Origin: Pontiella desulfatans
GTDB taxonomy: Bacteria; Verrucomicrobiota; Kiritimatiellia; Kiritimatiellales; Pontiellaceae
Reading direction: 5' to 3'
NCBI RefSeq assembly: GCF_900890425.1
Contig: NZ_CAAHFG010000001.1
Coordinates: 3,038,001-3,102,000 of the forward strand
Length of the DNA stretch: 64,000 bases
The stretch's first letter is position 1, and the number at the start of each line of letters is the position of its first letter. Below the pieces are notes generated by a model. The model worked only from the letters and a program-made list of their open reading frames with translations, did no database searches and was not told where the DNA came from. Shown piece by piece: positions 32,617 to 37,121 of the stretch. The translations under genes and the position numbers were made by a program.

Positions 32617-35496
32617 TCACGGCAACTCAACGCGCTTCATCAGGCGGACCGGACCCAGGAGCCCGGAGGGCACCAATTCGCCGCCTTTATCGTAATGGTT
32701 CCACGGTGCAAAGGTGTGGCGGTGACCTTCAGGAATGGCCGTGCCGTTGAGAACCCAGTCGGGGAACCGTTCGTACGCTTCATTTTTCCATTTGCTGCGC
32801 TTGCCGGTTTCCGGCAAAGCCGCGTCACCGATCAGTCGGTTGACCCACAGATTGGTCACCCGGATTTCCAGTTCGTTTTTACCTTTCCTGAGCGCGCCGG
32901 AAAGACTTACGCGAAACGGCGGCTTCCAGAGCACACCCAGATCTTTGCCGTTCACCAAAACGCGTGCCATAATCTGCACGTCGCCGAGATCGAGAACCAG
33001 CTCCGCGTCCGGATCGGAAACCGCAACCGTTTTGCGATATGACGCCGTGCCGGAAAAATGTTTAATTTTCTCGTTCGAATGTTCGTTCCACGCAATCAAC
33101 TCGCGAAACGGTTGCGGCTCTTTGGGCCCGAAAGTCGGATCAAATGTAACGGTCCAGTCGCCTGTAATTTTCCCGGCTTCCTTATACTCGATTTTCGGAG
33201 ATACTTTTTCGGTTTGATTAGTCGGTTTACGGAACACCACAAAAATTGAATCAGCGGGATCGAACTCCAGATCGACCTGCGTGCGGCCATCCTTGGTTCT
33301 ACGCCAGTTCGGAGCCGGCATGGTTTCGCCCGTTTCGGGGTTCCACAGTTCCGGCAATCTACCCGCAATACGGAACGTCACTTTTTCGTCGCGTGAATCG
33401 TAGGTCTGGTTGGATACGAAATAGAAATCGGCATCGCCAACTTTATGATGCGCATACTGCATTTTATCCGCCATTTCACAGTCGGGCGTAATCGCTTTAA
33501 TGCCGGCGTCGAGATCGGAGAGCGGACGGATCTTTCCGGAATCCCAGTATTTTTTCAGCAGCGCATTCAACGCCGCATCATTCTTTTCGGCATCCTTCAA
33601 ACGCGGGGTGCGGATCGGTCGATCGCAATAGACGGATGCGCCTTCTTCGACGAGCGCACCGAGTTTTTTCGCGGTATCGGGCGTCATCAATACCGTCCGC
33701 TTCATCACCAGCATTTCATAGACGTTCGGTAATGTTTTGCCTTTATAAGTGACGCGCACGTTGCCGTTTTTATCGACGAAGAGTCGGTCAAGCGTTCCGA
33801 TATCCGCCATGTTGAATTTATGGCCTGGAAGCCACGGCTCAGACAGTTCCTTTTCTTTATAGAAGCAGTTGAACCCGCGTTCGTCCCCATACAGATAGAG
33901 AAAGTCGCTCACGTATTCGCCTTGCTGGAAGATCGACTGACAGCGCGCAATGTACTCTTTCCAGACTTTGGAACCGTAGAACCAGGTATTGTTGCGGGCA
34001 CCCTGAAAGCCGAACTGCCCCATCGTCATCCCCGGCTTCACCTCATCCGGGAACGGGTTATGCGCCGCCGAATGGAAAATAAGCCGGTTAATCCCACGCG
34101 CGAAGGCGCGGTCGCCCCGGATCTTCATCACATACGGGTGCATTTTCCAGTCGCCTTTCATCCGCGTATAGGCTTCGGCCCCGACCACCTTCCTGCCCGT
34201 TAAATGCGCGGCGGACGACATCATCTGCGCCGTCCATTGGAACCCGAGTGCATCCGCCCACGGATCGTGCGCCTTGTTCTGCCAGAATTCCGTTACCGGA
34301 ATATCGGCGAGTTGTGCGACGCGCGAAGCTTCAAACGGCCCCCAACCGTAGGATTCAAGCTCCATCTTGAGTCCGTTCTGGTGGCATTTTTCGGTGAAAT
34401 AAAGGAAGTAGTTTTCGTACACCAAATCCGCCGCCGTCCGGCGCAAATCCCACAACACGCGCTCGCTGGTTTCGGTGCTTTCCAGAATCCGGCCCGTCAC
34501 GCAAACCAGATGCGGAATGAGGTCGTAGCCCGCCCGCTTTTTAAACTCCAGGTCAAACCCGTCAGTCCAGTTCTGATGCCCTACCTCGTAGCTATCAATC
34601 AGAAAGGTGCTGAACGCCCTGTGTCCTTTTCCGTAGGCGACGATTTTATCGAGAAACTTTTCCCAATATACATCCGCGACTGCGCGGCTCATCTTATCGA
34701 TTTCCAGCCCATTCGCGCCGTCGGATGCCGGACGATTCATTTCACCGGTCGTGGTGCTTCCAAAGCGGATCACGGTCCACTCTCCCGACTTCGGGCTCCA
34801 GTTCAGCTTGCCGGATGCATCCATCTTTCCCGAAAGGTCCAGCACCTCTTCGAGCGCGATAACCCCATCAGCCGGAGCTTTATCAAAGGAAGGCGGAAAG
34901 TTGCGGTCGCTCATTTTTTTCTCGCCGGTCCGCTCTTTTGCCAGATGTCCGTCGAGCGCTTTTTCAAACCAGTGCGCTAACCGGTAATCGGCATCGTCCG
35001 GGGTCGGAAAGGCGAGCACCGCAATATCGCGGTAAAAGTCGTGCAAGGCCTTCGGTTGCTCGAGCCGGATTCCGTTTTGTCCGGCCTTGATTTTCTTTTC
35101 AGACCAGACCAGTTTTTTCATCGACTGCTCCGGCGTAACCCATGCCGCCCCGGTGCTCGACCAGCCGGAATGGTTTTTGATGGAAACATCGAGTCCGAGC
35201 CGACTCGCTTCCGCCAGCATATATTCAACGGCGGAATGAAATTCCTTCGAGTCAAAATAGACGCCGCCGTGCGGGGTGTGCCAATTGATTTCGAAAAGCG
35301 AAAGTCCGCCGATTCCATTGGCAGCAAACGCCTCCAGATCTTTGGTGATGGCCGGCTCGGAAATATTTCCATTCATAAAATGGTAAAAGGTATACGGCCT
35401 CGCCGATTCCGGCGGACTCCTGAATGATCCTTCGACCTCACCGCGCGCACCCGCAGCAAGCAGGCAAGCCATACTGATAAATAGACTTTTTTTCAT
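32617..35496 (-). CDS. GH106-like alpha-L-rhamnosidase whose start codon was rebuilt by an IS
   Basis: About 959 residues, predicted to cleave alpha-L-rhamnosides outside the cytoplasm. The N-terminus is a signal peptide (MKKSLFISMACLLAAGARG). The hallmark GH106 start SFRSPPESARPYTFYHFMNG and DLEAFAANGIGG follow, then IKNHSGWSSTGAAWVTPEQS, a long barrel, and a C-terminal beta-sandwich (VLVNGKDLGVLWKPPF, TNLWVNRLIGD). The IS4 element at 35495-36952 lies directly upstream. The A and T of the start codon are IS bases and the G is target-duplication sequence, so the reading frame is intact. The original leader is now beyond the IS at 36963. Only a weak GGGA lies upstream of the new ATG, and another in-frame ATG is at 35502. 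Confidence 0.88.
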   Translation of the reverse strand: MKKSLFISMACLLAAGARGEVEGSFRSPPESARPYTFYHFMNGNISEPAITKDLEAFAANGIGGLSLFEINWHTPHGGVYFDSKEFHSAVEYMLAEASRLGLDVSIKNHSGWSSTGAAWVTPEQSMKKLVWSEKKIKAGQNGIRLEQPKALHDFYRDIAVLAFPTPDDADYRLAHWFEKALDGHLAKERTGEKKMSDRNFPPSFDKAPADGVIALEEVLDLSGKMDASGKLNWSPKSGEWTVIRFGSTTTGEMNRPASDGANGLEIDKMSRAVADVYWEKFLDKIVAYGKGHRAFSTFLIDSYEVGHQNWTDGFDLEFKKRAGYDLIPHLVCVTGRILESTETSERVLWDLRRTAADLVYENYFLYFTEKCHQNGLKMELESYGWGPFEASRVAQLADIPVTEFWQNKAHDPWADALGFQWTAQMMSSAAHLTGRKVVGAEAYTRMKGDWKMHPYVMKIRGDRAFARGINRLIFHSAAHNPFPDEVKPGMTMGQFGFQGARNNTWFYGSKVWKEYIARCQSIFQQGEYVSDFLYLYGDERGFNCFYKEKELSEPWLPGHKFNMADIGTLDRLFVDKNGNVRVTYKGKTLPNVYEMLVMKRTVLMTPDTAKKLGALVEEGASVYCDRPIRTPRLKDAEKNDAALNALLKKYWDSGKIRPLSDLDAGIKAITPDCEMADKMQYAHHKVGDADFYFVSNQTYDSRDEKVTFRIAGRLPELWNPETGETMPAPNWRRTKDGRTQVDLEFDPADSIFVVFRKPTNQTEKVSPKIEYKEAGKITGDWTVTFDPTFGPKEPQPFRELIAWNEHSNEKIKHFSGTASYRKTVAVSDPDAELVLDLGDVQIMARVLVNGKDLGVLWKPPFRVSLSGALRKGKNELEIRVTNLWVNRLIGDAALPETGKRSKWKNEAYERFPDWVLNGTAIPEGHRHTFAPWNHYDKGGELVPSGLLGPVRLMKRVELP
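35484..35494. repeat. Target-site duplication, left (GACTTTTTTTC)
   Basis: An 11-bp direct repeat identical to 36953-36963, on the two sides of the IS. The length is in the range of IS4-family target duplications. Confidence 0.85.
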
Positions 35497-36952
35497 TATC
35501 ATCCCATAGAGGACGTTAACGGAATGTCAGCGCCCGTTTTTGTTAAGGTTTTTGGTGTTCGATTCATTTAGTCGATTCCGATTTTTTATTGAAGGGTAAT
35601 GATGATTCCCCGTTTTAAACAGTTGGCTGTCCCACAGCATTTAGACGAACCCCGGCAGATACGCCTGTTCCGGTGCTCCTCGGATGCGACCGGGTGGTTT
35701 GGCTGTCCCATAGGATTCCAGCAGGGCGGGCAGGTTCCAACGACGCCAAAGCGAGGATCTTACGACGGTGAACAGCCGCTTGAAACTGTGATCCCATCCG
35801 TGCATGAACTTGAGACAGCGCATCAGCAAATGGACGAGCAATCCGGTCCATACCTGCCAGCGCACGGCATTGGCACTGTAGCCGAGGAAATCGGAGAGCT
35901 GGAGCGTCTGTTTGATTTCTTTAAAGAACACCTCGATGTCCCAGCGGCAACGGTAGAGCTCGGCCACGGTCCACGCACTCCACTTAAGATGGTTAGTCAG
36001 AAAGACCATCTCGATGTCTTGACCGTTGATTTCGACGAGTGCCACAACCCTGCGCAATTCGCGCGGGTAGGCCTCCTTAGATTTATCGAGCGCGAGTTCA
36101 ATCACCTCGTCACGAAGGATGCGCTTGTGTTTAGTCGTTTCGAGGGAGCGTATCACCGTGTACTGCATGTTGTCTTTCGCTCGACCCGCCCAATTAACAC
36201 CGCGCTCCGTCAGTTCCGAGAGATGCTTAAACTTGATATAAGCCTTGTCGAATACAACGATTTCTCCGGGCTCAAGGTCAGCACACAAGCTCAAGGTCTT
36301 GCGGCTGTCATGGTATTTTGCCGTGTCGACAATGGCGCATCGCGGAAGAAAGCTTTGCAGGTCCAGACGCATGTGACACTTCGCCGCAGCCTTGCGGCGG
36401 CGGTGCTTTGCCCAGTCCATGCTATTGGCCACCAGCTGTATCGTGGTCGAATCGAGCGCATGGATCGTCTTGCTGAAGCGACGGAGATATCCACTGCGTA
36501 CTTTACCCTTCGCAAAGCCGGGCACCGTGTCCATCAGATGCTTCATCATGCTCCAATAAAGTTCTTCAGCCATGTTCGCGTCACGCACTTGATTCGCATG
36601 ACTCAGGTTGTTGCGAGACGGCGGAACCGCACCGCGGATGGTGGAGAGCGCTGCTGCATTCATCTGGAGCGCGTCGCATACGTCGTTAAGCCCGAGCGCA
36701 TGAGCAAGATGGGCATACAAGAGCGAAACCACATGGCTCCACGGAGTGTACGTCCGGCTTCGGGCATCGACGCCATGCTTCTTCGCAAGGTTCGTGACCA
36801 TGTGTCCGGGAATCAGATTGCACAATTGCTTCAAGGTTGTATACCTATGTCCGGCTGGTTTGTGTTTTTGTCTCTGTTTTTTCATACCCTCCGAGTGGAG
36901 GATTTAGAGCTCACAAGCCAGCCTTTTTATTTAAAAGCTATGGGATGACAGT
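35495..36952 (-). mobile_element. Complete IS4-family insertion sequence, 1458 bp
   Basis: The element is bounded by 15-bp imperfect inverted repeats: ATTATCATCCCATAG at 35495-35509 and the complement ACTGTCATCCCATAG at 36938-36952 (13 of 15 match). An 11-bp target duplication flanks it. It carries one transposase gene on the minus strand and no passenger gene. The 131 bp between the left end and the transposase stop hold no gene. Identical duplications and intact transposase suggest a recent insertion. Confidence 0.92.
35641..36885 (-). CDS. IS4-family transposase
   Basis: A 414-residue DDE transposase. The first catalytic Asp is in IHALDSTTIQLV, the second in VVFDKAYIKF, and the Glu in the Y-(2)-R-(3)-E-(6)-K signature of IS4 enzymes, seen exactly in YRCRWDIEVFFKEIK. 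An N-terminal helix-turn-helix-like region is rich in basic residues (KKQRQKHKPAGHR). There is no internal stop or frameshift, so it is probably active. It reads in the same direction as the rhamnosidase gene downstream and could contribute read-through transcription. Confidence 0.95.
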   Translation of the reverse strand: MKKQRQKHKPAGHRYTTLKQLCNLIPGHMVTNLAKKHGVDARSRTYTPWSHVVSLLYAHLAHALGLNDVCDALQMNAAALSTIRGAVPPSRNNLSHANQVRDANMAEELYWSMMKHLMDTVPGFAKGKVRSGYLRRFSKTIHALDSTTIQLVANSMDWAKHRRRKAAAKCHMRLDLQSFLPRCAIVDTAKYHDSRKTLSLCADLEPGEIVVFDKAYIKFKHLSELTERGVNWAGRAKDNMQYTVIRSLETTKHKRILRDEVIELALDKSKEAYPRELRRVVALVEINGQDIEMVFLTNHLKWSAWTVAELYRCRWDIEVFFKEIKQTLQLSDFLGYSANAVRWQVWTGLLVHLLMRCLKFMHGWDHSFKRLFTVVRSSLWRRWNLPALLESYGTAKPPGRIRGAPEQAYLPGFV

Positions 36953-36963
36953 GACTTTTTTTC
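36953..36963. repeat. Target-site duplication, right (GACTTTTTTTC)
   Basis: Second copy of the 11-bp duplication at 35484-35494. Confidence 0.85.
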
Positions 36964-36987
36964 ATGTTTATTCCGCTATTCCTTGAA
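36963..36987 (-). promoter_or_regulatory. Orphaned original leader of the GH106-like gene
   Basis: On the minus strand AAGGAATAGCGGAATAAAC precedes ATG (36965-36963) and the codons AAA-AAA-AGT. These are the pre-insertion ribosome site and start of the rhamnosidase gene. They now lead into the IS and stop after about 11 codons. The bases 36988-37046 show nothing else. Confidence 0.7.
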
Positions 36988-37046: not shown

Positions 37047-37121
37047 TTAACCACAAGATGCACAGAACTCACAAAAGGCCTATAAATATAGCTATGTGTC
37101 TCTTGCGTATTTTGTGGTTAA
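37047..37121. repeat. Long inverted repeat TTAACCACAA ... TTGTGGTTAA
   Basis: Perfect 10-bp arms enclose a 55-bp interior with CACAGAACTCACAAAAGG-like sequence. The AACCACAAAATACGCAAGAGACAC style is familiar from intergenic repeats of many environmental bacteria (recollection). It lies 9 bp after the stop of the sulfatase at 37131 and could form a transcript-end hairpin. Confidence 0.55.

Follow-up and report, generated by a model that had tools for sequence, protein, structure and literature searches.

What becomes of a gene when an insertion sequence (IS) lands on its start codon? Insertion sequences are usually scored as either breaking genes or bringing promoters. The question is raised by a locus in the 8.66-Mb genome of Pontiella desulfatans (G000), studied here in a window of 64,000 nucleotides (the whole stretch of DNA analysed, G000:C1:3038001-3102000). 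The neighbourhood is a run of minus-strand genes encoding sulfatases, an FAD oxidoreductase-like protein and a GH106 alpha-L-rhamnosidase, and an IS stands at the start of the rhamnosidase gene (32617-35496, minus strand), whose reading frame of 959 amino acids is intact (Pfam PF17132, E=2.8e-161). The N-terminus of the protein, MKKSLFISMACLLAAGARG, is signal-peptide-like, and a 57% identical paralogue, whose open reading frame (ORF) contains MKKKTIIKLAGLCLVVAGARA, aligns with it from residue 2. An earlier note on this DNA had described an IS4 element with a flanking duplication at this gene start. This was borne out by the sequence, by Pfam and NCBIfam models and by comparison of copies: the IS4-family element is intact and the duplication that flanks it is perfect.

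The ends of the element were fixed against 24 other copies in the same genome and 11 copies in Pontiella sulfatireligans. The P. desulfatans genome has 25 full copies in three sequence groups, the others being 82-83% identical to the window copy, and the transposase is 96% identical in P. sulfatireligans F21 (G021). Oriented by the transposase, nearly all own-genome copies read 5'-CAYTGTCATCCCATAG ... CTATGGGATGAYARTG-3' (or ...GATGAATGTG) and nearly all have an exact 9-bp duplication; the well-resolved copies other than that of the window all have 9 bp, save two with 8 bp. In P. sulfatireligans and more distant Verrucomicrobiota, duplications are 9 bp, sometimes 8, and the ends are always CA...TG. 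Since the other copies show 9 bp and CA...TG ends, the window IS is the 1460-bp segment 35494-36953 (minus strand), flanked by the duplication ACTTTTTTT (read on the gene strand, AAAAAAAGT), which is identical at 35485-35493 and 36954-36962. Thus, the element remains at the gene start, as first described, and its exact ends shift to 35494 and 36953: the inverted repeats are 16 bp (CA...TG) rather than 15 bp, and the duplication is 9 bp rather than 11 bp. A duplication of 11 or 13 bp in the window copy was ruled out by the 9-bp duplications elsewhere; the extra G and C of the 11-bp repeat GACTTTTTTTC are there because the terminal G and C of the IS meet identical bases of the target.

Within these ends, at 35641-36885 (minus strand), lies an intact transposase of 414 amino acids with DUF4372 and DDE_Tnp_1 domains (PF01609, E=2.3e-25; PF14294, E=2e-13), which scores 239 bits against the NCBIfam IS4 model NF033592 (cut-off 115). 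The IS also contains two 19-bp repeats (35623-35641 and 35699-35717; TTGGCTGTCCCAYAGSATT), which look like the terminal repeats found in related elements (GGC[T/A]GTCCCAYAGG) and may represent an older end or a transposase-binding site within the IS.

The corrected ends alter the account of how the codon was rebuilt. It had been proposed that the IS gave A and T and the duplication gave G; the G is the terminal base of the IS and, therefore, the IS supplies A, T and G, so that the new ATG (35494-35496, minus strand) is entirely its own. The rest of the earlier account stands: the start is restored in frame as ATG-AAA-AAA-AGT-CTA, the rhamnosidase protein is unchanged, and the native leader with its ribosome site is lost to the gene and lies beyond the IS. 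The native ATG is the CAT at 36963-36965, preceded by a leader with a GGAA ribosome-site-like motif (AAGGAATAGCGGAATAAAC-ATG, 36963-36985, minus strand; predicted anti-SD energy -4.9 kcal/mol). An empty-site orthologue was sought in 58 related genomes and no close one was found, the best match outside the own genome having 43% identity. In the leader region now cut off from the gene there is an imperfect palindrome, TTAACCACAAGATGCACAGAACTCACA / TGTGTCTCTTGCGTATTTTGTGGTTAA (37047-37121), which may be a dispersed REP/MITE-like repeat.

The gene-proximal tip of the window copy, CTATGGGATGATAATG (16 bp, 35494-35509, minus strand), differs from CTATGGGATGACAGTG, the same-end tip of every close relative; the other tip of the window copy (36938-36953) reads CTATGGGATGACAGTG on the plus strand. 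The ending ATGACAGTG closes the gene-side tips of 4 own-genome copies, 11 P. sulfatireligans copies and 1 other Pontiella copy, whereas ATGATAATG occurs in the window copy only. Where these 16 related tips have ATG-ACA-GTG, the window tip has ATG-ATA-ATG, i.e., two substitutions private to this copy, one of them GTG to ATG; selection for an improved start codon would fit this change, but it is one case. A second in-frame ATG at 35500-35502 (minus strand; ATG-ATA-ATG-AAA, ORF 32617-35502) would add Met-Ile. Such an ATG stands six bases before the terminal (A/G)TG in most tips of all groups (ATG-NNN-RTG), where it overlaps a two-codon ATG-GGA-TGA reading frame; rebuilt proteins could be longer by two residues at the N-terminus.

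In the earlier note the locus was read as a one-time accident, but start codons are rebuilt in the same way at seven insertions of this genome. Beside the rhamnosidase gene (L001, new start ATG), the genes concerned encode an FAD oxidoreductase (L003, Pfam FAD_oxidored, GTG), a signal-peptide-like protein with no family assigned (L004xL005, GTG), a 234-amino-acid signal-peptide-like protein (L012, GTG), a sulfatase (L013, Pfam Sulfatase 5.8e-65, GTG), a 101-amino-acid protein (L018, ATG) and a 226-amino-acid signal-peptide-like protein (L024, ATG). A GTG start is also read as methionine. Five of the genes lie downstream of the 3' tip of the transposase and two downstream of its 5' tip, and every one of the seven is now separated from its native leader by 1.46 kb. 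Empty sites are available for two of them. The L018 gene is matched by an uninterrupted paralogue elsewhere in the genome (L300, 86% protein identity) and by a homologue in G016 (L298, 76%); the counterpart of the L004xL005 gene is an own-genome paralogue without the IS (L294, 93%). The uninterrupted own-genome paralogues lie at about 3,035,939 and 3,154,864 of G000:C1. All three uninterrupted genes keep the same leader and ATG, and the L294 leader, aaaacataaggagattaag-ATG-AAGTTATTTC, nearly equals the joined flanks of L004xL005; they are direct evidence that the IS landed just behind the native start codon of both genes. For the remaining five, the start was judged from the ORF, the leader and the N-terminus. 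There are two further near-start sites, L017 (native ATG within the duplication) and L011 (at codon 6). Elsewhere, L109 is the only clear start-codon case among about 31 sites, against 7 of 23 in P. desulfatans: in this uncultured bacterium, with a transposase 68% identical, ATG·AAACGTACT has become GTG·AAACGTACT in a signal-peptide-like gene (the dot marks the edge of the duplication). Its target was at one point taken for rpmH (MKRTLQP...), a reading rejected on finding that the frame runs on as a signal-peptide-like protein.

Several copies have irregular flanks. L002, L004 and L005 (G000:C1 at 2.864, 3.013 and 2.962 Mb) have the same orientation, and their mismatched duplications pair in a three-way cycle, as if the segment between two copies had been excised by recombination and reinserted at the third; one joined site of the cycle is confirmed by an uninterrupted paralogue. 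L007 and L020 (G000:C1:2414796-2417710) are tandem copies 9 bp apart, in which the duplication of the outer copy lies directly against the CAT tip of the adjoining one, and the repeat of the partner is only 7 bp (ACTGATT). In P. sulfatireligans (G021), L059, L069 and L063 lack matching duplications, and the identical right flank of L059 and L069 suggests recombination between copies or a duplicated flank. The otherwise well-preserved copy L022 (G000:C3:666128-667576) has an in-frame TGA in its transposase.

Once L002, L004 and L005 are re-paired according to their duplications and the tandem L007/L020 is set aside, the genome offers 23 independent sites. At nine of them (L001, L003, L004xL005, L012, L013, L018, L023, L024, L025) an ATG on one strand directly precedes the duplication, against 0.84 expected from the local sequence (+/-150 bp) of each site, a count reached in 0 of 200,000 simulations; at seven of these nine the ATG is a real start codon, which the IS tip has restored in frame as ATG or GTG. 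The relatives with about 50-68% identical transposases also have 9-bp duplications and (G/A)TG tips, and outside Pontiella an ATG flanks 5 of 24 sites (0.82 expected, P=0.001). In G001, G004, G024 and G365, the one-sided sites found at contig ends are also often of the form duplication-CAT. When start-codon sites are omitted, the symmetrised consensus is ATAATG·AATTCAATT·CATTAT, and a TG flank is present in 11 of 50 half-sites at non-start sites (P=1.6e-4); the half-site consensus outside Pontiella is TTATTG·AATT. The ATGs at L023, L025, L066, L071, L133, L244, L249 and L269 were considered as real starts and rejected, as they open short ORFs only. Since L023, L025, L066 and L071 are ATG-flanked without being gene starts, the preference is for a sequence and not for genes as such.

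How far such a preference reaches was estimated with a PWM of the non-start sites on the window, taken as a sample of the genome: starts would be expected to take 2.9% of insertions (0.06% if insertion were uniform), or 8.2% if every within-gene insertion were lost, whereas the observed share is 7 of 23, i.e., 30% (P=3e-6 and P=0.002, respectively), in a small number of sites. By this estimate, target preference explains most of the start-codon effect; as the observed share exceeds 8.2%, tolerance or selection probably adds to it, in that protein-preserving insertions would be tolerated.

The explanation considered likely, and with good confidence, is that a target preference matching the start codons of secreted-protein genes combines with (A/G)TG tips to yield insertions that preserve the protein but leave it without its leader and ribosome site. 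The element, of the IS4 family (IS4Sa-type), would be a cut-and-paste IS whose transposase would prefer A/T-rich 9-bp targets with the half-site flank (A/T)TG·AA (consensus ATG·AATT), a preference presumed to be intrinsic to the transposase. The ATG-AAA-AA starts of secreted-protein genes fit it, so insertions would recur between codons 1 and 2; the seven start-codon insertions would be there because the element prefers an ATG-AA landing site. The 9-bp duplication places codons 2-4 beyond the IS, and the tip, ATG or GTG, takes the place of codon 1. The protein is therefore the same whichever way the IS points, and its native leader and ribosome site come to lie about 1.46 kb upstream of the rebuilt gene.

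Could the pattern arise by survival rather than by targeting? A weak A/T-rich preference, with start insertions over-represented since these spare the protein and are tolerated, would fit the observed 30% at starts, which tops the 8.2% expected even when insertions in genes are lost. Such an origin is possible but doubtful, as the ATG·AA consensus and the TG flanks persist at non-start sites, and ATG flanks are also found away from gene starts, as well as in distant relatives. Very improbable is a single chance insertion, in which an 11-bp duplication happened to restore the codon: the 11-bp direct repeat is literally there, but the other well-resolved copies have 9-bp (in two cases 8-bp) duplications with CA...TG ends, and the same outcome is seen in seven genes.

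Perhaps, the tips instead owe their form to a role as a portable module for starting translation (GGGA-N5-(A/G)TG, with an extra in-frame ATG in most), through which the IS keeps or takes control of the gene. An (A/G)TG tip was found in every copy examined, Pontiella tips are predicted to pair with the anti-SD at -4.4 to -4.7 kcal/mol (median of window genes -4.8, random 20-mers -2.9), and in the window copy the gene-side tip alone has GTG changed to ATG relative to 16 related tips. Yet the CA...TG ends and the CATCCCATAG core are required by the transposase anyway, the GGGA of the tip, although about average among window leaders in its predicted pairing, would pair only 1-4 nt from the start codon (poor spacing), and the GTG-to-ATG change is one case. 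Moreover, a consensus scan on the gene strand from the transposase stop to the new ATG found no sigma-70-like promoter pointing into the gene. Such a module is thus unlikely, and an equally slender chance is given to the bolder reading of a Verrucomicrobiota-wide IS family that targets ATG·AA starts with its tips as portable initiation ends, swapping the native leader for one carried by the IS and leaving the protein unchanged; if true, this would be mobile expression control through start-codon replacement. Rhamnosidase expression would plausibly depend on IS signals or read-through, as the earlier note supposed. The consensus scan revealed no terminator between the transposase stop and the new ATG either, and the last 166 nt of the IS fold no better than shuffles (z=-0.19). 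Upstream read-through would be the likeliest source of any transcript of the rebuilt gene, and the rebuilt genes may still be expressed in this way, perhaps aided by the GGGA-N5-(A/G)TG tip.

Together, the target preference and the terminal bases of the element would ensure by construction that an insertion behind a start codon preserves the protein, whichever way round the IS lies, and annotation pipelines would score such genes as intact though the leader, the ribosome site and perhaps the promoter are gone. The rule is simple and testable (ATG·AA target, 9-bp duplication, (A/G)TG tip), and there are natural pairs of interrupted and uninterrupted paralogues within one culturable bacterium. 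A search of the open-paper literature found no precedent for an IS which targets or restores start codons.

Among known systems, the element is closest to IS4Sa. The IS4 family is defined by a D(60-110)D(100-150)E spacing with a Y(2)R(3)E(6)K motif (PMC2266710); here D145, D213 and E318, with Y311/R314/E318/K325, are invariant (alignment A1), and the duplication is of about one helix turn, as in the family (9 bp in nearly all copies, 8 bp in few). According to De Palmenaer et al. (2008, PMC2266710), IS4Sa has a length of 1150-1750 bp, 8-10 bp repeats, the terminal consensus CA------T and a DUF4372/DDE_Tnp_1 transposase; the Pontiella copies are 1457-1461 bp with 8-9 bp repeats, CACTGTCATCCC has C1, A2 and T9, and the window copy, at 1460 bp, has a single ORF with D(67)D(104)E and YREK. 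By these published measures (length, ends, duplication, DDE spacing and YREK), the element would be of the IS4Sa type. It shares with the IS231 subgroup the IS4 family, 5'-CAT ends and a marked target specificity, but IS231 has 10-12 bp duplications and another terminal consensus, CAT-------AA--TAA (PMC2266710, Table 1), whereas the Pontiella element has 9-bp repeats and the ends CAYTGTCATCCCATAG. Conserved target arms flank the duplicated sequence also in ISRm22 and other IS4-family elements (PMC2266710, PMC1525189); in the case described in PMC1525189, the insertion is into REP palindromes, whereas the arm of the Pontiella IS is an ATG, often at a gene start. What sets the element apart from IS4Sa, as far as described in PMC2266710, is the ATG·AA half-site at start codons, together with tips that rebuild the codon in frame.
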